Below the pieces are notes generated by a model. The model was given only the letters and a program-made list of their open reading frames with translations. It was not told the DNA's origin and ran no database searches. 64,000 nucleotides of DNA from Pinibacter soli (lineage in GTDB: Bacteria > Bacteroidota > Bacteroidia > Chitinophagales > Chitinophagaceae): contig NZ_JASBRG010000007.1 in assembly GCF_029961145.1 (NCBI RefSeq), positions 1,814,173 to 1,878,172 of the forward strand, written 5' to 3'. Positions 45,643 through 59,228 of this stretch are shown here, piece by piece (positions within the stretch are counted from its first letter, which is position 1; each line of letters starts with the position of its first letter). The position numbers and the translations under genes are program-made.

Positions 45643-46677
45643 CTATAAACTTTTCTCAATTTTCAATTTATCTTTAATTTCTTCCGCGCTCATTTTTGTC
45701 GCATCGCTTTCGATAAACAGCTTCTGATATGCCGCAGCCGTCGCAAATTCCAGCGTTTCCTGTGAAGAGAGTTCGTTGTACAAACCATAAATAATTCCGC
45801 CCATAAAGCAGTCACCGCTTCCCACCTTGTCCACTATTTTCTTTGCGAAATATTCGTGTGAAACAAACAGTTTATTATCGTTAAACAACGCGGTGTAATA
45901 ATTAATTCCCTGCTCTGCATGATCGAAGCGGAAAGTATTCGCAACCGTTTTTACTTTGTCAAACTGTTGCAAGATCGCTTTGCTTGTATTTTCTGCTTGC
46001 AGCAAATAATGTTCTTTAGTGCTGTTCTCATTAATGATTGAAGCATCAACCGGAATACCAAGCATTTTTTCTGCTGCCCAAATATTACCCATTACTACAT
46101 TACAATACTTTACGAGTTCAGGAACGACATCATGCGGCTGCTTGCCATACTGCCAAAGCTTTGCACGGTAGTTTAAGTCGATAGAAACTGTAATGTTTTT
46201 TCTTGATGCGGCTTCAGCAGCTTCTTTACATACATCGGCAACATTTTGATTCAGCGCCGGTGAAATGGCACTGAAGTTGAACCAACTCACATCTTTCAAT
46301 ACTTCATCCCAATCAATTGTTCCCGTTTTCAAATTGGAGAAAGAAGAATAATTTCTGTCGTAAATAACTCCGGCATTTTTTAGATCTTTTCCTTTCGGCA
46401 AATAATACAAACCGATGCGTTCGCCGTTGTACAACATTTTAGAAACATCTACTCTGTTGCTTTCAAGATATGCGGCGATCTGTTTTGCCATCATGTTATC
46501 CGGCATGGCAGACATGTAAGCAGATGGCACATCCCAAAGAGCCAACGCCGTTGCTACGTTGCCTTCTGCACCGCCCACATAAAATGGCAAACTATTGTCC
46601 TGCAACCATTCGCCATTTGTATCAGGACAAATGCGCAACAGGATTTCTCCAAATGATAGAACTTTTCCTTTTTTCAT
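45643..46677 (-). CDS. kdgK: 2-keto-3-deoxygluconate kinase (PfkB family)
   Basis: 344 residues from the ATG at 46677 (an in-frame TTG two codons upstream is less likely). The PfkB fold shows LSFGEILLRI, FYVGGAEGNVATALALW near residues 31-47 and the catalytic anion-hole motif DKVGSGDCFMGG near residue 285. It phosphorylates 2-keto-3-deoxygluconate to KDPG, the substrate of the adjacent eda product. Other sugar substrates are possible for PfkB proteins, but the neighbours make KDG the best call. Confidence 0.9.
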   Translation of the reverse strand: MKKGKVLSFGEILLRICPDTNGEWLQDNSLPFYVGGAEGNVATALALWDVPSAYMSAMPDNMMAKQIAAYLESNRVDVSKMLYNGERIGLYYLPKGKDLKNAGVIYDRNYSSFSNLKTGTIDWDEVLKDVSWFNFSAISPALNQNVADVCKEAAEAASRKNITVSIDLNYRAKLWQYGKQPHDVVPELVKYCNVVMGNIWAAEKMLGIPVDASIINENSTKEHYLLQAENTSKAILQQFDKVKTVANTFRFDHAEQGINYYTALFNDNKLFVSHEYFAKKIVDKVGSGDCFMGGIIYGLYNELSSQETLEFATAAAYQKLFIESDATKMSAEEIKDKLKIEKSL

Positions 46678-46685
46678 TGTCAATC

Positions 46686-46775
46686 TTTTATGGAAAATTG
46701 TTTATTGTTAGTTTTCTGGCCAAAAGTAATAACCCAAAATTACAACAACCTTGAACTAACAACAATCAACTTATT
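46686..46775. repeat. Inverted repeat, TTGTTAGTT word family
   Basis: The left arm AAATTGTTTATTGTTAGTTT (about 46692-46711) opposes the right arm GAACTAACAACAATCAACTT (46752-46771). It lies between the lactonase and kdgK genes. Confidence 0.65.
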
Positions 46776-46780
46776 TCTGT

Positions 46781-47659
46781 TCAGAGGTTATAGAAACTCA
46801 CCGCGTTACCTCCGTAAAATGCTTCTTTTTCACTTTCCGAAAACGACGCAAAATAATCATCCACAATACTCTTCATCACATTATACGATGCAGCAACATT
46901 GCACACCGGCCAATCTGAACCAAACATCAGCCTTTTCATGCCAAATGTTTCCACCACCACATCCATGTAAGGGTAAAAATCTTCCTTTTTCCAGTTTTTC
47001 CAATCTGCCTCTGTGACCATGCCTGAAATTTTACAGGAAACGTGCTTGTGATCTTTAAAAGCACTGATATCTTTTTTCCAATCGGCAATTTCCTGCGCTT
47101 TGATCAAGGGCTTCGCTAGGTGGTCTATTACAAAAGGCTGGTCAGGAAATTTCTTTGCGAACTCAAGTGAATATTGCAGTTGATCTGTGAAAATCAAAAT
47201 ATCATAGGTATAGCCAAACTTTTGCAGCAATGAAATTCCGTTCAAAAACGCTTCGCCCAACATATGGTCACGCTGCGGCTCACCCTGCAGCACATGTCTG
47301 AAGCCTTTTAGTTTTTCAAACTGTTTATAATGCGCCAATCTTTCTTCTACATTCGCTGCTTTTAAATCTATCCAGCCAACAACGCCTTTAATAAAATCAT
47401 TTGCAGCTGCATTATGCAATTGAAATTCATTTTCTACTTCGGATTGATCTGACTGCACAACAACACATCCGTCAAGTCCATTTTCTTTTAATATTACTTC
47501 CAAATGCTCAGGCAAAAAATCGCGTTGTATCGCACTCATCTCCTCATTGATCCAGCTATCGCGAACAGGATCAAATTTCCAGAAGTGTTGATGAGCGTCT
47601 ATTTTTAAATTCAAGTTGTGAGTTTTGAGTTGTGAGTTATGAGTTTTTGGATGACGCAC
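46781..47659 (-). CDS. Amidohydrolase, L-fucono-lactonase type (COG3618)
   Basis: 292 residues. TIM-barrel amidohydrolase with IDAHQHFWKFDP at the start, FVIDHLAKP, HVSCKISGMVTEADW and MFGSDWPVC, the pattern of L-fuconolactone / L-rhamnonolactone hydrolases. It would open the lactone formed by sugar dehydrogenation. The first 15 codons from ATG 47659 are written by an AACTCACAACTC repeat word and read KTHNSQLKTHN. Conserved sequence begins at the TTG at 47614, so that TTG may be the real or ancestral start. Between the mutarotase and kdgK genes. Confidence 0.9.
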   Translation of the reverse strand: MRHPKTHNSQLKTHNLNLKIDAHQHFWKFDPVRDSWINEEMSAIQRDFLPEHLEVILKENGLDGCVVVQSDQSEVENEFQLHNAAANDFIKGVVGWIDLKAANVEERLAHYKQFEKLKGFRHVLQGEPQRDHMLGEAFLNGISLLQKFGYTYDILIFTDQLQYSLEFAKKFPDQPFVIDHLAKPLIKAQEIADWKKDISAFKDHKHVSCKISGMVTEADWKNWKKEDFYPYMDVVVETFGMKRLMFGSDWPVCNVAASYNVMKSIVDDYFASFSESEKEAFYGGNAVSFYNL

Positions 47660-47690
47660 TATTCTAATTCCTAATTTCTCGTTCTAGTTC
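47613..47690. repeat. Single-arm repeat words GTGAGTTTTGAGTTGTGAGTTATGAG and CTAATTCCTAATTTCTC
   Basis: Two different word families side by side, both without a nearby opposite arm. The first lies inside the lactonase N-terminal codons. The same word in opposite orientation occurs at 58428-58460. The second matches the 2922-3004 element. Confidence 0.65.
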
Positions 47691-48022
47691 GTCTCAAATA
47701 TTTTATCCATAATAATCCACTTCTCTCCTTCCTTCGCCCAAGGCAAAGGCTGCTGAAATTTCCACATCAATTTTTCCCATTCCTGCACTTTTTCGTTGCC
47801 TGCATCAGCGGCTCCCTTAGCTTCGAAGCTGAATGAATCGTTTGTTTCCATTATCATAAACAGGCGGTTGCCGGTTCTGTATATTTCCATATGCTCAATG
47901 CCGCTTCCTTTAATGCTTTCCAATATTTCGGGCCACACAGATTTGTGATAAGCTTCATATTCTTCGATCAACGCCGGATCATTTTTCAGGTCGAGTGCAA
48001 GACAATATTTTTTCATCATCAT
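47684..48022 (-). CDS. L-rhamnose/L-fucose mutarotase (YiiL/DUF718 family)
   Basis: 112 residues, the usual length of this small alpha/beta-barrel family that interconverts sugar anomers. YEAYHKSVWPEILESIKGSGI carries the conserved His and Trp. YRTGNRLFMIMETNDSF and the late WEKLMWKFQQPLPWA stretch are typical. Directly adjoins the permease gene (no gap), so the two are surely co-expressed. L-fucose is favoured by the neighbouring FucP-type permease. Confidence 0.9.
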   Translation of the reverse strand: MMMKKYCLALDLKNDPALIEEYEAYHKSVWPEILESIKGSGIEHMEIYRTGNRLFMIMETNDSFSFEAKGAADAGNEKVQEWEKLMWKFQQPLPWAKEGEKWIIMDKIFETN

Positions 48023-49273
48023 TTAGTGAGATGCGGCAAGTTTAATTTGCTGCACTTTAATATTTTTAAATGCGAACAACATTACTACTATGAAACAAGC
48101 AGCAGGTACAAGGTACGCTGTCTGAATATTCGTATGATCAGAAACCTGGCCCATAATTACAGGGAATATAGCGCCTCCTACAATTGACATAATGATCAGA
48201 GATGATCCTTCTTTTGTTTTGGAACCAAGTCCGCGAATGCCGAGAGAAAATATTGTAGGGAACATGATCGACATGAAGAACTCTACACCTGTGATCGCAT
48301 ACACAGAAACCATTCCTTTGCTCATCACCGCAAATACAAGCAATAGTATATTCAGGATGCTGTAGGTAGCCAACAATTTTGGAGGAGCGATGAAACGCAT
48401 TAAGAATGTGCCAACGAATCTGCCGATCATAAAACCAACCATCGCACCGGCCAGCAACCCCGCTGCAACCTTTTCTTCCAGCCCGGCGGTTCTTTCTGAG
48501 AAACGGATAAAAAAACTGCTCACACAAACTTGTGCCCCAACATAGAAGAACTGCGCCAACACGCCAAACATCAAATTCTTTTCCTTGAGAATAGAACCTT
48601 CCACCTCAAGCGAATCATCCTGTTCTTTTATTTCAGGCAACGCTGTTTTCCATAATAACAACGCCACACATAGCACAACCAGTCCTATTATAATGTAAGG
48701 CAACTTAACTGATGCAGCTTCGTGATCCAGGTACGCACTTAAGTCTGTCGCAGACATCGCACCCTTTTGCTGCTCTGTCAATGACTTTCCTGAAAGAATA
48801 AACGTTCCCCCGAGTAGTGGTGCAAGGAACGCTGCCAAACCATTGAACGATTGGGCAAAATTGATACGTTGTGTTGCGCTCTCAGGATCGCCCAACACCG
48901 TAATGTAAGGATTGGCCGCTGTTTCCAGAAATGCTAACCCACTTGCTATAATGAACAATGCACCAAGGAAAAATCCATAGGACCTTGTAATGGCTGCAGG
49001 ATAAAATAAAAATGCGCCCAAGGCAAATAACATCAATCCGAAAATGATGCCTCCTTTATAACCATATCTCTTCATGAACAGACCAGCAGGAATGGCCAAT
49101 AAAAAATAGGCGATGTATGACGCAGAATCAATAAATGCAGATTGTGTGTCGGAAAGCTGACAAGCCTTTTTCAGGTGCGGAATCAATATAGGATTAAGAT
49201 TCAGCGCAAATCCCCATAGAAAAAACAATGAGGTAATTAGAATAATCGCGAGCTTGTTTTTGTTTGTAGGCAT
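48023..49273 (-). CDS. fucP: L-fucose:H+ symporter family permease (MFS)
   Basis: 416 residues with 12 predicted membrane helices. The start has FFLWGFALNLNPILIPHLKKACQLSD, then GYKGGIIFGL and GLAFLETAANPYITVLG, with NPYITVLG and the acidic/Asn pair being hallmarks of FucP-like porters. It likely imports L-fucose or a related sugar. First gene of the - strand catabolic operon, divergent from the AraC regulator. Confidence 0.9.
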   Translation of the reverse strand: MPTNKNKLAIILITSLFFLWGFALNLNPILIPHLKKACQLSDTQSAFIDSASYIAYFLLAIPAGLFMKRYGYKGGIIFGLMLFALGAFLFYPAAITRSYGFFLGALFIIASGLAFLETAANPYITVLGDPESATQRINFAQSFNGLAAFLAPLLGGTFILSGKSLTEQQKGAMSATDLSAYLDHEAASVKLPYIIIGLVVLCVALLLWKTALPEIKEQDDSLEVEGSILKEKNLMFGVLAQFFYVGAQVCVSSFFIRFSERTAGLEEKVAAGLLAGAMVGFMIGRFVGTFLMRFIAPPKLLATYSILNILLLVFAVMSKGMVSVYAITGVEFFMSIMFPTIFSLGIRGLGSKTKEGSSLIIMSIVGGAIFPVIMGQVSDHTNIQTAYLVPAACFIVVMLFAFKNIKVQQIKLAASH

Positions 49274-49536
49274 GATAAAAAAGCAATTCGTTATGTTATG
49301 AAAACAAAGAAACTATTTTTCCCGCGTTCGGGTTTTCCCCTATTTATCCAACTATTAAGCTATTTTAACATCATTTTGCCTAAATTGTGGTTTTGGGAGA
49401 TAAATTATGAAACGGAGCGGAACAAATTTTCGCGCATAAGAATGCATCTGCGGAGTTCCCTGCCCGACCAAGGCCATTCAGGCGGGCATCCAACTAAAAA
49501 TAATCGCAGCGTTAGCGGCAAACAAAAAATATCCGG
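49274..49536. other. Divergent regulatory gap between fucP and the araC-type gene
   Basis: 263 bases. It contains a modest imperfect hairpin around 49450-49490 (GCCCGACC ... AGGCGGGC) and no word-type inverted repeat. Operators for the adjacent AraC-type regulator are expected here, but no clear direct repeat was recognised. A frame of 80 codons at 49298-49540 lacks any protein-like features. Confidence 0.4.
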
Positions 49537-50409
49537 ATGAAAGCGAAATTGCTTAAAGTATTGGTCACGCCAACCCGTTCTTTTAACGTGCGGGAAGATC
49601 TTGTCCCGAATGTGATCAACAAGTGGCATTACCATCCCGAGGTAGAAATCATCCAGGTGCACAAAGGTACAGGTACGCGTTTCGTAGGCGATGACATTAA
49701 ACACTTTGCGCCCGGAGACATTGTACTGCTCGGCTCTAATTTACCGCATTACATCCGGTACGACGATCCTTATTTAAGGGTTACAGAAAGCAAAACGCCT
49801 TTTGCTACCGTTATACATTTCACCGAAAACTTTTGGGGAGAACAATTCCTTTCACTACCGGAGAACGCGTCGATAAAGGTCTTTCTTGAAAAAGCGAGAT
49901 ATGGTGTTGTGGTAGAAAAAAAATACAGCGAACAGATCAGCGCGACTATTAAAAAAATAAGGACAACCGAAGGCGCAGAACGGATCATTGCATTGCTGGA
50001 ATGCCTGACAGCGTTTTCAAAGATGGAGAAGATCACAACGCTTTCATCTATCGGCTACCGCAACGATTTTCAATTGCAGGAAAATGAACGCATGACCGCC
50101 ATTTACGATTACGCATTCAAAAATTTCAGACAAAAAATCTCGCTTGACGACATCGCTGCAGAAGCGGGCCTCGTAACCAATTCATTTTGTCGATACTTTA
50201 AAAGCCGCACTGGCAAAACGTTTACAGGTTTTCTTATAGAGCTTCGTGTTGGCTATGCCTGCAAACTATTGATAGAAAACCGGAAAACGATTAAGCAGAT
50301 CTGCTACGATAGCGGCTTTAATAATTTCACCTGTTTTCATAAATACTTCAAAGCGAATACAGGCAAAACGCCGCAGCAGTATTTGAACGAATATTTGGAG
50401 AAGGAGTGA
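49537..50409 (+). CDS. AraC family transcriptional regulator
   Basis: 290 residues. The N-terminal cupin sensor domain has NKWHYHPEVEIIQVHKG at about 27-43 and the proline/His-rich FAPGDIVLLGSNLPHYI stretch. The C-terminal two-helix-turn-helix domain (about 188-288) has SLDDIAAEAGLVTNSFCRYFK and QICYDSGFNNFTCFHKYFK-like motifs with GKTPQQY. It is divergent from fucP and likely controls that operon in response to a sugar or sugar acid (inference). Confidence 0.93.
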   Translation: MKAKLLKVLVTPTRSFNVREDLVPNVINKWHYHPEVEIIQVHKGTGTRFVGDDIKHFAPGDIVLLGSNLPHYIRYDDPYLRVTESKTPFATVIHFTENFWGEQFLSLPENASIKVFLEKARYGVVVEKKYSEQISATIKKIRTTEGAERIIALLECLTAFSKMEKITTLSSIGYRNDFQLQENERMTAIYDYAFKNFRQKISLDDIAAEAGLVTNSFCRYFKSRTGKTFTGFLIELRVGYACKLLIENRKTIKQICYDSGFNNFTCFHKYFKANTGKTPQQYLNEYLEKE

Positions 50410-50527: not shown

Positions 50528-51748
50528 TTAAAAAAAGCTCACTCCCACTGTCCAGCCAAACCACGCATAAGTATTGTCCCACCAATGCATCACACCATAG
50601 GAAGGCATTGCTTGTTTGTAATCTTTCACGTCTGTGTGCTGATCGGTGTAGTACAGTGAAAACGATGGGCCTGCATACAACGTAAGACCTTTTGCAACAG
50701 TGAAATTGAAATTGGCCGAAAGTTTTTGCAGAAGATTTGTGTACTGCCAATCACCTGTATACATGTACTGCGAGGTGATTTCAGGATTAATGCTAATGTT
50801 GTGTGCAAGCTTTACTGCACCTCCAAAACCTGCACCAAAGGTGTACAGCTTTTTATTGTCACTTGGGTTGGCACCGCCTAACAGAATGCCATAAAAATTC
50901 TTAGTACCGGAGCGGAAGGCAACGTTCACGCTGTTACTCTCATTGGCATAAAGAGAGAATTGATAAAAACCATTCTTAGCAATATTGATCAAACCAATGC
51001 TACAACCTTCGGAAGTATCTGCAATATTGATAAGCCCGATTTGCACTCCTTTCAGTTTTTTTGTGTGATTCACAAGTCCCGCAACCTGGAGCCCTTCCAC
51101 TTCTTTCGTACTATTAAATAAACCTGCTACCGTCATACCTGTCACCTTTCCTTGCACCTTATTAACAAGTCCTCCGACTTGAAACCCTGCTACATTACCA
51201 TTCACAATATTTGTCAATCCTCCAACCTGCGAGCCAATAACACTTTTGGCAACATTGTTATACAGGCCGGCAACCTGTATGCCGATAACACTATCGCCCA
51301 CCATATTAAAGAGTCCAGCGACTTGCGCACCCCTTACTTTTTTATTAACTGTATTAAACAATCCTCCCACCTGTGCACCTATCACACTATCGCCAACTGT
51401 ATTGAACAAGCCTGCAACCTGTGCTCCCATAACGTTTCCGCCGACAGTGTTAAAAAGGCCAGCTACCTGCGTGTATGCAACATTTTTTTGATCGACATTG
51501 AACAAACCGGCAAATTCAAATCCGGTTACACTGTTATTTTTTCCTCCGAGTACATTGAATGAAACGCCTCTTATGTCAAGCACTTGCCTGCCATTCGTTC
51601 CTACTCCCGGAGCAAATGATATTTGCGCCGGGACTACCGGGCCGAATGGCCATGCTTTCCTTTGCGTTGTATCTTTTTCCTGTGCGTTTGCCAATGTCAA
51701 AAAATTCATACAAACCATTACCACTATACATTGTTTAATTGTTCTCAT
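50528..51748 (-). CDS. Outer-membrane protein with eleven 16-residue GLxN repeats (short paralogue)
   Basis: 406 residues. A signal peptide covers about 1-22. Residues about 74-245 are about eleven 16-residue units of the form (V)xGxQVAGLFNTVGDS. The last reads IGLINIADTSEG. A C-terminal region (about 250-406) looks like an eight-strand-type beta-barrel and ends with aromatic FF, as outer-membrane barrels do. The repeats plus barrel are clearly homologous to the 641-residue protein at 53679, but this copy lacks the STN and carboxypeptidase-like domains. It resembles the surface-repeat (LA_2272-like) group by pattern; that link is by eye. Its promoter carries the locus-wide TAGGGGT-N14-TTGTC signature. 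Confidence 0.85.
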   Translation of the reverse strand: MRTIKQCIVVMVCMNFLTLANAQEKDTTQRKAWPFGPVVPAQISFAPGVGTNGRQVLDIRGVSFNVLGGKNNSVTGFEFAGLFNVDQKNVAYTQVAGLFNTVGGNVMGAQVAGLFNTVGDSVIGAQVGGLFNTVNKKVRGAQVAGLFNMVGDSVIGIQVAGLYNNVAKSVIGSQVGGLTNIVNGNVAGFQVGGLVNKVQGKVTGMTVAGLFNSTKEVEGLQVAGLVNHTKKLKGVQIGLINIADTSEGCSIGLINIAKNGFYQFSLYANESNSVNVAFRSGTKNFYGILLGGANPSDNKKLYTFGAGFGGAVKLAHNISINPEITSQYMYTGDWQYTNLLQKLSANFNFTVAKGLTLYAGPSFSLYYTDQHTDVKDYKQAMPSYGVMHWWDNTYAWFGWTVGVSFF

Positions 51749-51762
51749 ATTGATTCTTTAGG

Positions 51763-51792
51763 GTGAGACAACGAAGTGGAACTCGACCCCTA
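51763..51792 (-). promoter_or_regulatory. Putative ECF promoter P1 (TAGGGGT-N14-TTGTCTCAC)
   Basis: On the - strand, TAGGGGT at 51792-51786 and TTGTCTCAC at 51771-51763 are separated by exactly 14 bases. It ends 15 bases before the ATG of the 406-residue protein. The same arrangement occurs at 51946 and 55850. Confidence 0.75.
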
Positions 51793-51796
51793 TGGG

Positions 51797-51943
51797 GAAT
51801 TAATAATTAATAATTAAAAATTAATAGGTGCTACAGCTTGGGACTTGCCCAGTCTTTGCTGTTAGGCAAGCAGCAAGTTTACTCTCTATTTTTCCGCAAC
51901 ACACAAAGCATTCTTAATTCTTAATTATTAATTATTAATTCTC
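51797..51943. repeat. Inverted repeat of AATTAATAATT words between promoters P1 and P2
   Basis: The left arm (51797-51827) and right arm (51910-51943) are AT-rich and mirror each other. Each sits directly upstream of a TAGGGGT box, one on each strand, so they could act as UP-element-like sequences for the divergent ECF promoters. The roughly 80-base centre is unremarkable. Confidence 0.8.
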
Positions 51944-51945
51944 CG

Positions 51946-51975
51946 TAGGGGTAAACGCCTCTCCGCTTGTCATAC
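51946..51975 (+). promoter_or_regulatory. Putative ECF promoter P2 (TAGGGGT-N14-TTGTCATAC)
   Basis: TAGGGGT at 51946-51952 and TTGTCATAC at 51967-51975 with a 14-base spacer, about 60 bases before the sigma factor ATG. This suggests autoregulation of the sigma operon. Confidence 0.75.
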
Positions 51976-52002
51976 TGGAAAGAAAAAATTGGCAGAAGCT
52001 AT

Positions 52003-52010
52003 TATATTTG
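52003..52010 (+). promoter_or_regulatory. Bacteroidota -7 box TATATTTG
   Basis: Exact TAnnTTTG match 23 bases before the sigma factor ATG. It may provide a basal housekeeping promoter beside P2. Confidence 0.4.
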
Positions 52011-52033
52011 AACCAAGTTATCAATGTATAAGA

Positions 52034-52615
52034 ATGGAAATCAGCCATCCGCAAAGTAATGCCTTGCTTACGAGCGACTGGAAAAACAACTTCGAATCAG
52101 CCTTTAAAACGCATTTTAAAGGCTTGCATGCCTATGCATTTACGGTTGTAAAAGACTCCACCATCGCAGAAGAAATCGTACAGCAGACATTTTTTAAGAT
52201 ATGGGAAAAAAAGGATCAACTGAATATTGACACTTCTCTCACCGCCTATCTATACAAAACAGTGTATAACCACAGCCTCAATCATTTAAAACATGAGAAA
52301 GTGAAACAGGCCTACCAGGCACATACCGTTCACCACATGAAAAACAATACCGATAACGCAGAAAAGAAAGTGCTGCTTACAGAGCTGCAGCAGAAAATCA
52401 GTGTGGCGCTTAGTGAATTGCCGGAACAATGCCGCACCATTTTCCAAATGAGCCGCTTCGAGGAATTGAAATACAGTGAGATCGCACAGCGTCTCGGCAT
52501 TTCTCCCAAAACCGTTGAAAACCAAATGGGCAAGGCATTGAAGCTCCTGAGAGTGAAGCTTGTCGACTACCTGCCTATCATTCTAATCATCTTACCCAAC
52601 CTCCTAATCCAGTAA
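52034..52615 (+). CDS. ECF-type RNA polymerase sigma factor
   Basis: 194 residues from the ATG at 52034. A longer TTG-started version from 51989 would span the -7 box and is not preferred. Region 2 is FKTHFKGLHAYAFTVVKDST followed by IAEEIVQQTFFKIWEKKDQL. Region 4 is LSELPEQCRTIFQMSRFEEL with the HTH YSEIAQRLGISPKTVENQMG. No sigma regions 1 or 3. A FecR-type anti-sigma gene follows 3 bases after the stop. It most likely reads the three TAGGGGT/TTGTC promoters in this locus (inference). Confidence 0.95.
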   Translation: MEISHPQSNALLTSDWKNNFESAFKTHFKGLHAYAFTVVKDSTIAEEIVQQTFFKIWEKKDQLNIDTSLTAYLYKTVYNHSLNHLKHEKVKQAYQAHTVHHMKNNTDNAEKKVLLTELQQKISVALSELPEQCRTIFQMSRFEELKYSEIAQRLGISPKTVENQMGKALKLLRVKLVDYLPIILIILPNLLIQ

Positions 52616-52618
52616 ACA

Positions 52619-53605
52619 ATGAACACAGATCTACACGATATAAACGATGAACTACTGGTAAAATTCCTGCTGGGAGAAGCATCTCCGGCAGAAAGCACGA
52701 GCATTTCTCAATGGATCGCCACCTCTGCCGATAATGAAAAATATTTCAACGACTTCAAACTGATCTGGGATAACAGCCTGGAACTTGCTTCCAAAAGCAC
52801 TGTTGATGAAAATGCTGCCTGGCAAAGGTTTCAGCAAATGATTGCGGCAAAGGAAGAATCTGCCAAAGCACCAGTTGTACCTATTACCGGAAAAAATAAT
52901 TGGCTGAGAGTTGCCGCAATTGTGTTCGTAGTTATTACCGGCGCGATTAGTTATTTCATTTGGCAGGAAAATAAACCGGCGGCACAGATAAATATAGCAT
53001 CTACCAGTGCTACTCTTAACGATACACTGCCAGACGGTTCGATGGTTACACTGAACAAGAACACAAAGATTTCCTACGCTGATCATTTCAAAGGCAAAAC
53101 AAGAAACCTAAAACTGCAGGGAGAAGCTTTCTTTAAAGTTGCGACAGACAAAGACAAACCGTTTATTGTAAATGTAAATGATGTCACCATCACTGTATTA
53201 GGAACTTCTTTCAATGTAAAAAATAACAATGGAGAAACAGAAGTGATTGTCGAGAGCGGCCTTGTTCGCGTGGAGCATTTGGGTAAGAAAGTAGATTTAA
53301 AACCAAATGAAAAAGCTGTTATCAGTAGTAGCAACGCGGCTTTACAAAAAGAGTCCTCCACAGATAAATTGTACAATTATTATAGCAGCAGGCAATTTGT
53401 TTGCGACAAAACGCCACTGTGGAAGCTTGTTGAAAAACTGAATGAGGCTTACGATGTGAACATCACAATTGAGAATCCGTCTGTAAAATCTTTACCACTT
53501 ACCACCACATTTAATGACGAATCTTTAGATAATGTTTTAAAAATCATTTCAGAAACTTTGGATGTTAAAGTGGAAAGAAATGGAAACAACATTACACTGA
53601 AGTAA
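52619..53605 (+). CDS. FecR family anti-sigma factor with DUF4974 domain
   Basis: 328 residues. The cytoplasmic N-terminal part (1-94) includes ELLVKFLLGEASPAES, a membrane helix is at about 95-115, the periplasmic FecR domain is at about 128-235 (LPDGSMVTLNKNTKI, LQGEAFFKVA, TVLGTSFNV), and the C-terminal DUF4974 domain is at about 255-328 (PLWKLVEKLNEAY). It should hold the sigma factor until a periplasmic signal, usually from an STN domain, arrives. Here the STN domain is in the next gene, on a repeat protein instead of on a TonB receptor. Confidence 0.95.
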   Translation: MNTDLHDINDELLVKFLLGEASPAESTSISQWIATSADNEKYFNDFKLIWDNSLELASKSTVDENAAWQRFQQMIAAKEESAKAPVVPITGKNNWLRVAAIVFVVITGAISYFIWQENKPAAQINIASTSATLNDTLPDGSMVTLNKNTKISYADHFKGKTRNLKLQGEAFFKVATDKDKPFIVNVNDVTITVLGTSFNVKNNNGETEVIVESGLVRVEHLGKKVDLKPNEKAVISSSNAALQKESSTDKLYNYYSSRQFVCDKTPLWKLVEKLNEAYDVNITIENPSVKSLPLTTTFNDESLDNVLKIISETLDVKVERNGNNITLK

Positions 53606-53678
53606 AAACAATGACGACGAGCGATGGACAAATTTACAGGTAGAAAAAGAATTTGTTCATGGCATAAAAAAAGAGATC

Positions 53679-55604
53679 ATGCAGCGATTAACCCTGATTA
53701 TACTTGTATTCACAACTTTTCTATTTCACAAAAACGCAGGTGCACAAAGCATTCTAAACAAAACCATTTCTGTAGAAGTAACCCGTCAACGAGTGGAGGA
53801 TGTACTGGAGATCATCAGCAACAAAGGCGATTTTTATTTTTCTTACAATAGCAATATCATTAACAGAGATAGCCTTGTAACCATATCGGCGCCGAACAAA
53901 ACGATCAAACAAATTCTTGATCTCATCTTTAAATCGGGCTTTGAGTTTAAGGAAAGCGGCAATTATATCATTATCCGCCGCACACCGATAAAGCTGACTT
54001 TGGTAACGAACCAGGCAGTGAGTGAAGATAATTTTTTCACCGTGACAGGCTACATCATCGACGAGCAAACAGGCGAAAGAGTCAGGGATGCAAGTATTTA
54101 TGAAAAACAAAAACTACTCATAGCCACCAGTGATGACAAGGGTTATTTTAAATTGAAAATCAAAAACAAGTACAAGAGCATTGCGCTAACGGTCAGCAAA
54201 GAAAATTACCAGGACACGACGGTGAACATTCAACCCAACTACAACCAGCAGATACGTATAGCCATTGTGCCCATCGATATTTCCAGCCGATCAATTATTA
54301 TAACGCCGCAAAGCTTGTACGCGCCGGACTCCATTTACGTTGCCGTTCAACAACCAGATAGCAGTATCTGGTTGTACACGTATAAGAAGCTTGACTCATC
54401 ATTGGTAGAAACTACCAGGCTGGGCCGCTTGCTGCTTTCATCAAGATTGAAAATCCAATCTGTTAACCTGAACAAATTCTTCACTGTGCGTCCCGTACAG
54501 GTTTCAGTACTTCCCAAAGTGAGCACGAACGGGAAGCTGAACTCGCAGGTGGTTAACAATTTCTCTGTCAACATTCTCGGCGGTTATTCCGGCGGGGTAA
54601 ACGGATTTGAAATGGGTGGTTTGTTCAACATTGATAAGAAAGATGTGAAGTATTTTCAGATCGGCGGTTTATTCAACAGTGTTGGTCAAAGCGTAACCGG
54701 CGTTCAGATTGGCGGCATTAACAACACAGTGATGGACAGCGTTGTAGGTATGCAGGTGGGTGGAATTACCAACTACGTGAAAAATAGTTTTCACGGCGTT
54801 CAGTTGGGCGGCATCTATAATCACATCGGCAAAAGTGCAACTGGTTTACAAGTTGGCGGCATTGCAAACTATCTGAGAAATGACTTGCAGGGAATGCAAC
54901 TTGGCGGCATTTACAATCACGTAAATTCCGGAACACAAGGTGCACAGATCGCAGGCATCACCAACTATTCAAACCGTTACATGAACGGATTCCAACTTGC
55001 GGGTATTGCCAACGTTACAAATAATTTACAAGGTGTTCAGATAGCCGGGATTGTTAACTACGCAAAAAAAATGAAGGGCCTTCAAATCGGATTGATCAAT
55101 ATTGCCGATACTTCAGAAGGTGTGAGCCTTGGATTGATCAATATAATTCTTAAAGGTTATCACAAACTTGCCTTGTACAACAATGAAGTCACTGATGTTA
55201 ACATCGCGTTCAAATCCGGCACAAAATATCTGTATTCAATTTTAACCGCCGGAGCAAAACTCGATAAAAACCAAAAAGCATACAGTGCAGGCTACGGGCT
55301 AGGTACAGATATTTCCTTTACTCCACGATTTGGTATCAACCCCGAACTTACCGGTAGTTTGATCTATTTAGGCGATTTTGATAATGCCAATATTCTATCT
55401 CGTTTCAATCTGAATGTTCATTACAACATCACCAAACATTTTTCTATTTTCGGAGGACCGGCGTACAGCTTGTACTATTCTAAACAAATAACAAAAAATC
55501 CTGGCTACGCAACCGTCATCCCTTCAGAAGGTTATAGCGTGCGCAGTTTTGACAATCACCTTACAGGATGGATTGGCTGGAATGTGGGCATAGCGTTGTT
55601 TTAA
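53679..55604 (+). CDS. STN-domain outer-membrane protein with eleven 16-residue GLxN repeats (long paralogue)
   Basis: 641 residues. A signal peptide covers about 1-22. An STN (secretin/TonB N-terminal) domain is at about 28-100 (VEDVLEIISNKGDFYFSYNS, KTIKQILDLIF). A carboxypeptidase-D regulatory-like domain is at about 120-190 (VTGYIIDEQTGERVRDASIY). A linker follows. About eleven 16-residue repeats at 307-480 have the form VxGxQVGGIxNxVxxS. A barrel-like C-terminus ends VGIALF. The last 330 residues align with the 50528 gene product. STN domains normally contact FecR from a TonB-dependent transducer. Here the domain is fused to a repeat barrel, a possible direct input to the adjacent FecR. 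Third gene of the sigma operon; 73-base gap. Confidence 0.88.
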   Translation: MQRLTLIILVFTTFLFHKNAGAQSILNKTISVEVTRQRVEDVLEIISNKGDFYFSYNSNIINRDSLVTISAPNKTIKQILDLIFKSGFEFKESGNYIIIRRTPIKLTLVTNQAVSEDNFFTVTGYIIDEQTGERVRDASIYEKQKLLIATSDDKGYFKLKIKNKYKSIALTVSKENYQDTTVNIQPNYNQQIRIAIVPIDISSRSIIITPQSLYAPDSIYVAVQQPDSSIWLYTYKKLDSSLVETTRLGRLLLSSRLKIQSVNLNKFFTVRPVQVSVLPKVSTNGKLNSQVVNNFSVNILGGYSGGVNGFEMGGLFNIDKKDVKYFQIGGLFNSVGQSVTGVQIGGINNTVMDSVVGMQVGGITNYVKNSFHGVQLGGIYNHIGKSATGLQVGGIANYLRNDLQGMQLGGIYNHVNSGTQGAQIAGITNYSNRYMNGFQLAGIANVTNNLQGVQIAGIVNYAKKMKGLQIGLINIADTSEGVSLGLINIILKGYHKLALYNNEVTDVNIAFKSGTKYLYSILTAGAKLDKNQKAYSAGYGLGTDISFTPRFGINPELTGSLIYLGDFDNANILSRFNLNVHYNITKHFSIFGGPAYSLYYSKQITKNPGYATVIPSEGYSVRSFDNHLTGWIGWNVGIALF

Positions 55605-55640
55605 GAAAGTTGTTAGTTGATAGTTTTTGGTTGTTAGGCT
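55605..55640. repeat. Single arm of the TTGTTAGTTG word family
   Basis: AAGTTGTTAGTTGATAGTTT directly follows the stop of the 641-residue gene. No opposite arm is seen in the same gap. Confidence 0.55.
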
Positions 55641-55756
55641 TTGTGTTCAACTTGGCTTCATTTGTCGTCCGTTGACTGAATTCAACGGCAATATGGCTCA
55701 ATTATTTTTACCATTCCTGAAATTCCTTTTCAATAATGCTTGTTGCACCGAAACAA

Positions 55757-55847
55757 TTCTTAATTCCTAATTCTTAATTCTTAATTCTTAATTAATTCCC
55801 CTCTCGCACACCTCTTATTAATTATTCTTTATTAATTATTAATTCCT
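55757..55847. repeat. Tandem TTAATTCTTAATT words upstream of promoter P3
   Basis: A long run of AATTCTTAATT and TTATTAATTATT words ends directly at TAGGGGT of P3, as at P1 and P2. Only one orientation is present here, so it is half of the arrangement at 51797-51943. Confidence 0.75.
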
Positions 55848-55849
55848 CA

Positions 55850-55879
55850 TAGGGGTATGTCTTTCATCAATTGTCTCAC
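55850..55879 (+). promoter_or_regulatory. Putative ECF promoter P3 (TAGGGGT-N14-TTGTCTCAC)
   Basis: TAGGGGT at 55850-55856 and TTGTCTCAC at 55871-55879, 14-base spacer, 20 bases before the TonB receptor ATG. Confidence 0.75.
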
Positions 55880-55899: not shown

Positions 55900-58257
55900 A
55901 TGACAGCAAAGACTTTAAGGCACTTGTTTTTAACAACAGCTTTACTACTAACCTTCTCTTACGTTACAAATGCACAACTTACTCAAACCATTCGTGGCAC
56001 TGTAACGGATCAATTGTTACAAAAATCATTAGATGGTGTAACAGTTACCATTACTGATCTCAACAGAACAACAACAACCGCAGCAGACGGAAGCTTCAGG
56101 TTCGCAAACGTACCTGTGGGACTGCATCACGTGCATGTAACACACATAGGCTATAAGGACGCAACTATTGAAAACATAACGTTAAATTCTGGTAAAGAAT
56201 ACGTCGTATCAATTTCTCTTGATGTAGATCCAAAGGCGCAGGAAGAAGTTATAGTGAAAGCAAAGAGCAAAAGAAACAGGCCGCTTAACGAAATGAGCCT
56301 GGTTAGTGCAAGAGCTTTCACCGTTGAAGAAACTCAAAAGTATGCTGCAGCAGTAAATGATCCGCTGCGCATGGCGACAAGCTTTCCGGGTGTCATAGGA
56401 GCAGATGATGGCCGCAATGACATTGTCATCCGCGGTAATTCTCCTACCGGATTGCTATGGAAAATGGAAGGCATGGATATTCCAAATCCTAATCACTTCA
56501 GCAATCCTGCGAGTAGTGGCGGTGGCATTAGTATATTGAGTGCGCAATTGCTTTCTAATTCGGATTTCATAACCGGCGCATTTGCGGCAGATTACGGCAA
56601 CGCATTGAGCGGCGTGTTTGACATTCATCTAAGACAAGGCAACAATGAAAAAAGAGAATACACTGCACAGGCTGGCGTGCTTGGCTTGAACCTGGCAGCA
56701 GAAGGACCTTTCTCAAAAAACTACAAAGGCTCTTACTTGGTAAACTATCGTTATTCTACTTTAAGCATATTGGACAAAGTGGGTGTGAATGTAGGCGATG
56801 GCACTACAAACTTCCAGGACCTTTCTTACAATATTTTCCTTCCTACGAAGAAAGCAGGAGACTTTACCATCTTCGGTTTTGGAGGACTAAGCAATCAGGA
56901 TTACAATGGAGAAAAGGATTCATCAAAATGGGAAGATGACTACGACAGAGTAAGATCAACTTTTACATCAAACACAGGGTTCGCCGGCATTAAACATAAC
57001 ATTGCTTTATCCCGCAGCACACGTCTTACTTCCGGTGTTGGCTATTCCATTGTTGGAGCAAAATACAATGAGAACTACGCAGAAAACCCAGACAGCATTG
57101 TGAACACTTACGACGATAAATACACCACTAAAAAACTCTCTGTTACAACAACACTGAATCACAAAATAAATTACCAACAAACACTTCGTGCAGGCATGAT
57201 TGCGAACTTTTACAATTTTAATTATTATCAGCGTTCTAGAGAAAATCCAACGGAGCCTGTTACCCAAAAAATAAACACAGCCGACAAAACCCAAACCATT
57301 CAAGGCTTTGCGGAATGGCAGTACAAACCTGTAAACAACGTAACTGTCGATGCCGGTTTGCATTATTTGCAATTACTCTACAATGATTCAAAATCCATAG
57401 AGCCGCGGGCAGCCATCAAATGGGATGTAACAAAAACAAACACGATCGGACTTGCCTACGGCCGTCACAGTCAAATGCAGGCTTTGGGTGTTTACTTTGC
57501 GGAAACAACTGACAACACTGGTAAGATATATCATCCCAACAAAGACCTGGGTTTCACCAAAGCAAACCACTATGTGTTCTCGTACAGTCATCTGTTCTCA
57601 AGGAACCTTCGTTTCAAAACAGAATTTTATTATCAGCAATTATTAAACGTACCAGTTAGTACAAGTGATACCAACACCTTGTCAACATTGAACTTAATGG
57701 GCGATTACACCACCGATCCGATGGTGAACAATGGCAAAGGTAAAAACTACGGCGTTGAAATTTCATTAGAAAAATACATGTGCAACTATTTCTATTTTCT
57801 TGCGAGCGGCTCTTTGTTTCAATCGAAATACACTGCATCAGACGGCATTGAAAGAAACACACGTTTCAACAGCAACTATGCAGCAAACTTTACAGGCGGT
57901 AAGGACTTTGTCTCAGGCAATGGTCGCAGAACGTTTGGTGTAAACATAAAAGTGATCTATACAGGAGGTTTCAGGGACACACCAATCGATGTAGAAAAAT
58001 CAAAGGCTTACGGCTACACTTACTACATCGACAAGGAGGCATACAGCCTGCAAAATCCCGCATACTTTAGAACCGATCTACGCTTGAGCATGAAATGGAA
58101 CAGAACAAAACATACCAACACGCTATCGCTCGATCTGCAAAATCTTACCAACAGACAAAACTATTACGGCCAATATTTTGACCCTACAAAAGGCACTGTA
58201 CAAACCGCTTACCAAACAGGATTGATACCTATTTTAAATTATAAAGTGGAATGGTAG
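55900..58257 (+). CDS. TonB-dependent outer-membrane receptor (CarboxypepD_reg-like N-terminus)
   Basis: 785 residues. A signal peptide covers about 1-25. A carboxypeptidase regulatory-like domain is at about 29-115 (IRGTVTDQLLQKSLDGVTVT). The plug domain, about 125-240, has VIGADDGRNDIVIRGNSPTG and MEGMDIPNPNHFSNP. The long beta-barrel ends LNYKVEW. No STN domain is present, so it cannot itself signal by the classic route. It shares the P3 promoter signature with the sigma operon and is probably induced by it. Substrate unknown; no SusD partner is adjacent, which argues against a polysaccharide-utilisation role. Confidence 0.93.
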   Translation: MTAKTLRHLFLTTALLLTFSYVTNAQLTQTIRGTVTDQLLQKSLDGVTVTITDLNRTTTTAADGSFRFANVPVGLHHVHVTHIGYKDATIENITLNSGKEYVVSISLDVDPKAQEEVIVKAKSKRNRPLNEMSLVSARAFTVEETQKYAAAVNDPLRMATSFPGVIGADDGRNDIVIRGNSPTGLLWKMEGMDIPNPNHFSNPASSGGGISILSAQLLSNSDFITGAFAADYGNALSGVFDIHLRQGNNEKREYTAQAGVLGLNLAAEGPFSKNYKGSYLVNYRYSTLSILDKVGVNVGDGTTNFQDLSYNIFLPTKKAGDFTIFGFGGLSNQDYNGEKDSSKWEDDYDRVRSTFTSNTGFAGIKHNIALSRSTRLTSGVGYSIVGAKYNENYAENPDSIVNTYDDKYTTKKLSVTTTLNHKINYQQTLRAGMIANFYNFNYYQRSRENPTEPVTQKINTADKTQTIQGFAEWQYKPVNNVTVDAGLHYLQLLYNDSKSIEPRAAIKWDVTKTNTIGLAYGRHSQMQALGVYFAETTDNTGKIYHPNKDLGFTKANHYVFSYSHLFSRNLRFKTEFYYQQLLNVPVSTSDTNTLSTLNLMGDYTTDPMVNNGKGKNYGVEISLEKYMCNYFYFLASGSLFQSKYTASDGIERNTRFNSNYAANFTGGKDFVSGNGRRTFGVNIKVIYTGGFRDTPIDVEKSKAYGYTYYIDKEAYSLQNPAYFRTDLRLSMKWNRTKHTNTLSLDLQNLTNRQNYYGQYFDPTKGTVQTAYQTGLIPILNYKVEW

Positions 58258-58511: not shown

Positions 58512-59228
58512 ATGATGAAACAGATTAGTGTGATTATTGCCTCTATTGCGATTCTCTTTTCGATGAACGCATGTAAGAAGGTTGTCGGTGAAGGACCTGT
58601 GGTAACGCAGGAAAGAACAACATCTGCATTTACTGCATTGCATTCTAAATTATCTGGCGATGTTTTCTTTAGCAATGGAAACGAATACAAGGTAAAGATC
58701 GAAGCACAGCAAAACATCATTGATGTGATGGAGACAATCATTAGCGGCAGTGAATTGCAGATAAAATTTCGAAATGATGTGAATATTAAATCCCATGAAG
58801 CAGTCAAAGTGTATGTTACTGCTCCGGAAGTGAAAAGCTTTACACAAAGTGGATCTGGCACCGTGAATGTGCAAAATGATTTAACGGTTGACAATTTGAA
58901 CTTACAAATAAGCGGTTCAGGAAACATCAAAATAAGCAAAGTAGAAAGTGATCAAATCTATTCACACATCAGTGGTTCAGGAAACATACAAGTCGCCCAG
59001 GGTACTGCAAGCAAAATGACCGCAGACATTAGCGGCAGCGGTAATATTGACCTGATCAATGTGCTGAGCAAAAATGCATCTACCACAACGAGTGGTTCAG
59101 GAGGCATCAAAGTATATGTAACAGACAATCTTGATAGCAGGATCTCCGGCAGCGGCACTGTTTGGTATCGCGGCAATCCTCGCGTCAATGCAAATATTTC
59201 AGGATCAGGGAGAGTTACTCCTTATTAA
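58512..59228 (+). CDS. DUF2807 (head-GIN domain) lipoprotein
   Basis: 238 residues. A lipoprotein signal ends MNACKK with Cys21. The rest is a repetitive beta-helix-like DUF2807 domain. Recurrent SGSGNI/SGSGTV/SGSGRV turns start near residue 115 and repeat about every 18-25 residues. The head-GIN family is common on Bacteroidota surfaces and has no established function. Start at 58512 or the next codon (MM). A terminator follows. It may belong functionally with the sigma locus, but it lacks the shared promoter. Confidence 0.9.
   Translation: MMKQISVIIASIAILFSMNACKKVVGEGPVVTQERTTSAFTALHSKLSGDVFFSNGNEYKVKIEAQQNIIDVMETIISGSELQIKFRNDVNIKSHEAVKVYVTAPEVKSFTQSGSGTVNVQNDLTVDNLNLQISGSGNIKISKVESDQIYSHISGSGNIQVAQGTASKMTADISGSGNIDLINVLSKNASTTTSGSGGIKVYVTDNLDSRISGSGTVWYRGNPRVNANISGSGRVTPY

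Follow-up and report, generated by a model that had tools for sequence, protein, structure and literature searches.

Organization of the locus

The DNA analysed here (the window) is a 64,000-nucleotide stretch of Pinibacter soli, a member of the Chitinophagaceae (assembly GCF_029961145.1, contig NZ_JASBRG010000007.1, positions 1,814,173–1,878,172). It contains a module in which genes for an extracytoplasmic function (ECF) sigma factor, a FecR-type regulator and a 641-residue putative surface sensor form one operon, flanked on the opposite strand by the gene of a 406-residue repeat protein and followed downstream by the genes of a TonB-dependent receptor and a head-GIN-domain protein (Table 1). 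Three promoters of the module share a two-part motif, and one sigma factor very probably controls both its own operon and a small set of outer-membrane genes.

The sigma factor scores 170.8 bits against TIGR02985, for which the curated cut-off is 126.4, and both of its Pfam domains, Sigma70_r2 and Sigma70_r4_2, were found. Nearly all loci have fecR immediately 3′ of the sigma gene. The 406-residue protein is 44% identical to residues 267–641 of the putative sensor, and the two proteins score 56.8 and 38.6 bits, respectively, against the LA_2272 family of surface repeat proteins (NF047436, cut-off 25); the putative sensor adds an N-terminal STN domain and a carboxypeptidase-regulatory-like domain (CPD). 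Among named relatives the closest is Pinibacter aurantiacus, with a sensor protein 96% identical to the one here. The head-GIN gene has no motif of its own in this genome, so that its membership in the regulon would be possible only through read-through.

Table 1 Features of the module, with positions counted from the first letter of the window.
Feature	Coordinates	Strand	Description and basis
Promoter of repeat-barrel gene, TAGGGGT-N14-TTGTC	51767..51792	-	Exact match; weight-matrix score 21.9 without this genus; 18 nucleotides before ATG 51748
Promoter of sigma-fecR-sensor operon (autoregulatory), TAGGGGT-N14-TTGTC	51946..51971	+	Exact match; weight-matrix score 36.3, top-scoring site of the window
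Promoter of TonB-receptor gene, TAGGGGT-N14-TTGTC	55850..55875	+	Exact match; weight-matrix score 31.1
ECF sigma factor	51989..52615	+	208 residues from the probable start TTG 51989 (193 from ATG 52034); TIGR02985, Sigma70_r2, Sigma70_r4_2
FecR-type anti-sigma factor or sigma regulator	52619..53605	+	328 residues; Pfam FecR and FecR_C above cut-off
Putative surface sensor	53679..55604	+	641 residues; STN, CPD, LA_2272-type repeat solenoid, C-terminal barrel
Solenoid-barrel paralogue of the sensor, predicted regulon output	50528..51748	-	406 residues; no STN or CPD; homology, LA_2272
TonB-dependent receptor, predicted regulon output	55900..58257	+	785 residues; CPD, barrel, weak plug match, no STN
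DUF2807 head-GIN-domain protein, conserved neighbour	58512..59228	+	Pfam DUF2807, 142.4 bits; syntenic in many loci

The promoter motif in the window and the genome

The window contains three exact matches to TAGGGGT-N14-TTGTC, with a spacer of 14 in every one. An earlier note, made from the sequence alone, had described these boxes and this spacing at three promoters, with TCAC or ATAC after TTGTC; the exact matches bear this out, the bases that follow being TCAC, ATAC and TCAC in the order of the sites in Table 1. The end of TTGTC lies 18 nucleotides from the start codon of the repeat protein and 24 nucleotides from that of the TonB receptor. The rest of the 5,912,437-bp genome, which was covered by pattern searches and by the analysis of selected stretches, contains no further match of TAGGGGT with TTGTC at any spacing from 12 to 16. 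The random occurrence without envelope genes that the earlier note had named as contrary evidence was not seen in this genome-wide scan, which gave three sites only, all of them before module genes. The three sites fall within 4.1 kb, and this is not a chance event, because the reversed pattern, used as a control, matches only 62 times in 149 related genomes, or about 0.4 times per genome.

A weight matrix was trained on 125 distinct sites with this genus excluded, and a score of 12 was adopted as the threshold for the motif. The matrix ranks the three sites at the top of the window (36.3, 31.1 and 21.9), followed by a site scoring 9.4. The 14-bp spacers of the three sites are unlike one another in sequence. 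Thirteen sites with one mismatch occur elsewhere in the genome, the best of which scores 10.8 as against 21.9–36.3 for the three, and 11 of the 13 sit within long open frames. They were inspected as candidates for a wider regulon in this genome, and none was convincing.

Conservation of the module and the motif in relatives

The family was sampled with 149 genomes and the phylum with a draw of 296, and motif statistics were compiled over 80 named loci and the window. The 641-residue protein has a match in 99 of the 149 family genomes, many of these being matches of the STN domain to other proteins only. At about 40 family loci the sigma, fecR and sensor genes are consecutive and are usually followed by the TonB receptor and the GIN protein, often with a second repeat barrel. 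Gene order is mostly unchanged across the 80 named loci, which belong to genera such as Niastella, Terrimonas, Flavihumibacter, Chitinophaga, Taibaiella and Dyadobacter. Strong sensor matches were found in 15 genomes of the phylum draw, from several families.

The spacing from TAGGGGT to TTGT before module genes is 14 in 100 sites, and no other value occurs more than six times. The consensus over module loci is TAGGGGTA-N12-GTTGTCnTA, with TAGGGGTA as the -35 element and GTTGTCnTA as the -10 element. At the threshold of 12 the motif stands upstream of 70 of 76 sigma genes, 49 of 56 TonB-receptor genes and 22 of 23 second-barrel genes, and upstream of none of 77 fecR genes, 8 of 88 sensor-like genes and 5 of 49 GIN genes, which mostly lie downstream within operons. 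Random segments reach a score of 12 in 2.7% of cases, a control that includes real promoters and so overstates the background. In other families of the phylum the site is present in 9 of 11 loci.

The 149 genomes contain 120 exact sites, whereas the reversed pattern gives 62. Module loci, which hold about 51 of the 120, account for the excess over this control; the remaining 69 or so are near the control level. Several of the off-module exact matches are explained by what we take, by eye, to be the tRNA T-loop sequence AGGGGTCGCAAGTTCGAATCTTGTC. Other off-module sites stand before sigma genes (L083, L084, L093), before repeat barrels that stand alone (L087, L088), and before a GIN gene (L078) and a distant orthologue of the TonB receptor (L075), and the motif thus accompanies module genes that are relocated elsewhere in genomes. 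Little was gained across the family with a stricter 43-bp pattern.

Three further observations concern the distribution of the motif. Sites beside extra sensor copies (L091, L092) precede outer-membrane-barrel-like proteins of another kind, 335–340 residues in length, which may extend the regulon in those genomes. In a genome with no sensor match (L079, G106:C51) a FecR-type gene is preceded by TAGGGGTA-N13-TTGTC, with sites at 933 and 4792 that lie 3.9 kb apart, the second one upstream; this may be a cousin system with a similar promoter. The module of Dyadobacter sp. LHD-138 (L164), outside the Chitinophagaceae, has a promoter that fits the motif less well (TTTAGGGTA, score 10.4) and was perhaps acquired by transfer.

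Translation start of the sigma factor

Orthologues of the sigma factor share an in-frame peptide, LxEAxIFxxxYQ, upstream of ATG 52034, which begins at TTG or sometimes at GTG or ATG. This upstream start codon is most often located 16–18 nucleotides past the -10 box, and deeper lineages have an ATG at 8–10 nucleotides. In the window, TTGTC ends 62 nucleotides before ATG 52034 and 17 nucleotides before TTG 51989. Judged by the conserved N-terminal peptide and by the start-codon distance, translation probably begins at TTG 51989, and the start at ATG 52034 given in the earlier note is corrected to this codon. With this start the sigma message most likely has almost no leader, and the sigma messages of some of the deeper lineages, with ATG 8–10 nucleotides after the -10 box, may be leaderless.

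Structure of the putative sensor and its paralogue

All 38 orthologues of the putative sensor contain the CPD and 37 contain the STN domain; a search of the 38 for Plug and TonB-receptor domains at E values up to 0.1 gave no match. The last residue, Phe 641, which ends the C-terminal barrel, is invariant. The AlphaFold2 model of the putative sensor, with a mean predicted local distance difference test (pLDDT) value of 78, comprises the STN domain, the CPD, a low-confidence linker, short-strand repeats and the C-terminal barrel. The model of the 406-residue paralogue is better, with a pLDDT of 87.5 and a predicted template modelling score (pTM) of 0.72. Residues 36–289 of this model match the β-helical antifreeze domain 3p4g with a Z score of 21.7 and 2.5 Å over 224 residues, a shared fold that shows no function, and residues 257–406 match eight-stranded outer-membrane barrels with Z scores of about 12–14. 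The barrels of both models align with OprF, NspA and OmpA with VIA-align Z scores of about 13–14 over about 110–130 residues, and with Foldseek E values of only about 1e-3 to 1e-2.

A probable self-amplifying regulon

The module most likely constitutes a small self-amplifying cell-surface-signalling regulon, in which the TIGR02985-type sigma factor drives its own operon, the TonB receptor and the 406-residue barrel. We assign this reading a probability of about 0.87. The motif, its rarity and its conservation before the same genes were computed directly, as were its fixed spacing and the concerted promoter change described below; these last two, together with gene association and autoregulatory position, support the proposal of the earlier note that the sigma gene product drives all three promoters, its own included. 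We infer that the sigma factor binds the motif, that FecR is inhibitory and that the 641-residue protein is the sensor. In the proposed mechanism the sigma factor, translated from TTG 51989, would recognise the -35 and -10 elements at one fixed distance and transcribe the sigma-fecR-sensor operon, the TonB-receptor gene at 55900 and the repeat-barrel gene at 50528. FecR would keep the sigma factor at the inner membrane, and the 641-residue outer-membrane protein would offer its periplasmic STN domain to FecR in the manner of FecA-type transducers. A change in the barrel or solenoid part of this protein would then free the sigma factor.

The promoter link could be right and the 641-residue protein nonetheless be an output, namely a surface structure, with the signal taken by the TonB receptor or by FecR itself. 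The absence of a plug from the 641-residue protein fits such a role, as does the co-regulation of a TonB receptor from a class that usually signals. However, the STN domain, which is the FecR-touching part in known systems (PMC9249621), is carried by the 641-residue protein in 37 of 38 orthologues and not by the receptor, and the gene of the 641-residue protein stands immediately after fecR in nearly every locus. An output role is thus unlikely, although it deserves to be kept in view. By analogy with FecA, FpvA and PupB (PMC9249621), the STN domain of the 641-residue protein is expected to contact FecR. We also propose, tentatively and at less than even odds, that this protein represents a new class of transducer: a small plugless outer-membrane barrel with a rod-like β-solenoid, and with an STN domain at the far end through which FecR is informed. 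The state of the outer membrane, rather than a transported substrate, would then set the activity of the ECF sigma factor, and the STN-less paralogue, also a product of the regulon, would serve as feedback or effector.

It is improbable that another regulator, either a different ECF sigma factor or a DNA-binding activator, reads the motif and controls the module while the local sigma factor controls something else. The genome would offer candidates, with some 50 ECF-like sigma matches (54 matches to TIGR02985, 14 of them above the cut-off), and binding of the motif by the local sigma factor is itself a deduction. However, when the 700 bp upstream of 30 ECF-like sigma loci were scanned, the site was present at this one only (36.3), the other 29 scoring 2.3 or less, and the excess of the motif in relatives tracks the module. 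Moreover, ECF sigma factors require a rigid promoter spacer, and two boxes at one fixed spacing are typical of their promoters (PMC6411747).

The -10 box also argues for the local sigma factor. Its last base is C (TTGTC) in most lineages and T (TTGTT) in some, and in 60 of 65 within-locus pairs the sigma promoter and the receptor or barrel promoter carry the identical base, compared with 39.7 expected from shuffling. At least five changes of the C/T state are required on the sensor tree; only two of these fall on supported branches, and in both the other promoter changes likewise. This concerted change is suggestive of one shared reader. The sigma residues that covary best with the C/T base include 60, 66, 67 and 78 (numbered from ATG 52034), at or just after the region 2.3–2.4 loop, which reads the flipped -10 base in known ECF sigma factors (PMC6411747). 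The residue covariation was set aside as proof and is taken as suggestive only, because of shared ancestry.

Several points weigh against the regulon as proposed. No clear site was found at 6 of the 76 sigma loci, and 2 of the 11 distant loci are without one. The independent changes behind the C/T covariation are few, with two on supported branches, and do not suffice for a significance test. The model of the putative sensor has an overall pTM of 0.49, and its sensor role is assigned by domain analogy.

The earlier note had also reported AT-rich words shared by the three promoters. These are present, but they are not specific to the promoters: TTAATTATTAATTATTAATT, with at most one mismatch, has 321 matches in the genome, and the AT heptads (TTAATTA repeats) belong to an intergenic repeat found throughout the genome, frequently as inverted pairs separated by about 100 bp. 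The words were therefore ruled out as a promoter component. The heptad pairs enclose a short unit of about 100 bp, frequently starting AATTAATAGGTGC (e.g. L217, L219, L221), which may be a small repeat of mobile or processed type, and one inverted pair occupies 51797–51940 between the two divergent promoters of this locus. A modest A/T-rich stretch (AT 0.86) located 20–11 nucleotides before the motif is general. Although heptads adjoin all three sites, it is scarcely credible that the three upstream regions are copies of such a repeat element and not selected promoters, since TAGGGGT-N14-TTGTC itself occurs just three times in the genome, the spacers differ and other genera carry the motif without heptads.

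Comparison with known systems

Bacteroidota genomes can carry dozens of ECF sigma factors each, and to our knowledge few Bacteroidota ECF promoters have been defined. In the polysaccharide loci of this phylum, TIGR02985 ECF sigma/FecR pairs are located beside SusC-like transporters. The module shares with these pairs the sigma subfamily and a FecR with FecR_C, and differs from the SusC-linked pairs in having no visible SusC-SusD pair and in its sharply defined promoter with a single conserved target set.

The module resembles the FecI-FecR-FecA system for ferric citrate of E. coli and the FpvI/FpvR/FpvA and FoxI/FoxR/FoxA systems of Pseudomonas in that an ECF sigma factor is encoded beside FecR, an outer-membrane protein bears an N-terminal STN domain and a TonB receptor belongs to the regulon. 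In contrast to those systems, the protein that bears the STN domain here is a solenoid-barrel without a plug, and the TonB receptor has no STN domain. The sigma operon, moreover, appears to be autoregulated, whereas fecIR is transcribed by sigma70 according to a review (PMC9249621). ECF-type control of Bacteroidota envelope genes is also seen in the SM6 promoters of Flavobacterium psychrophilum (PMC9723704) and in PorXY-SigP of P. gingivalis (PMC4800418). The SM6 promoters have CGT as the -10 box and targets in type IX secretion (PMC9723704), whereas the module has GTTGTCnTA as its -10 element and other envelope proteins as its targets.

Text searches of the literature for this motif in work on Bacteroidota sigma factors, for the LA_2272 repeat and for STN/CPD proteins yielded nothing about the present system. 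Judged apart from the published ECF classification, the new elements are a defined, widely conserved promoter code and a plugless putative STN sensor; the principle of ECF autoregulation is not new. The promoter code, the sigma factor, the regulator and the target list are all legible from sequence at one locus, and the module suggests that STN/FecR signalling is not bound to TonB-dependent transport.

Neighbouring genes

The genes at 45643–50409 appear to encode a kinase, an amidohydrolase, a mutarotase, a sugar symporter and an AraC-type regulator, a set that, recognised by eye, presumably reflects deoxysugar (fucose or rhamnose) catabolism.

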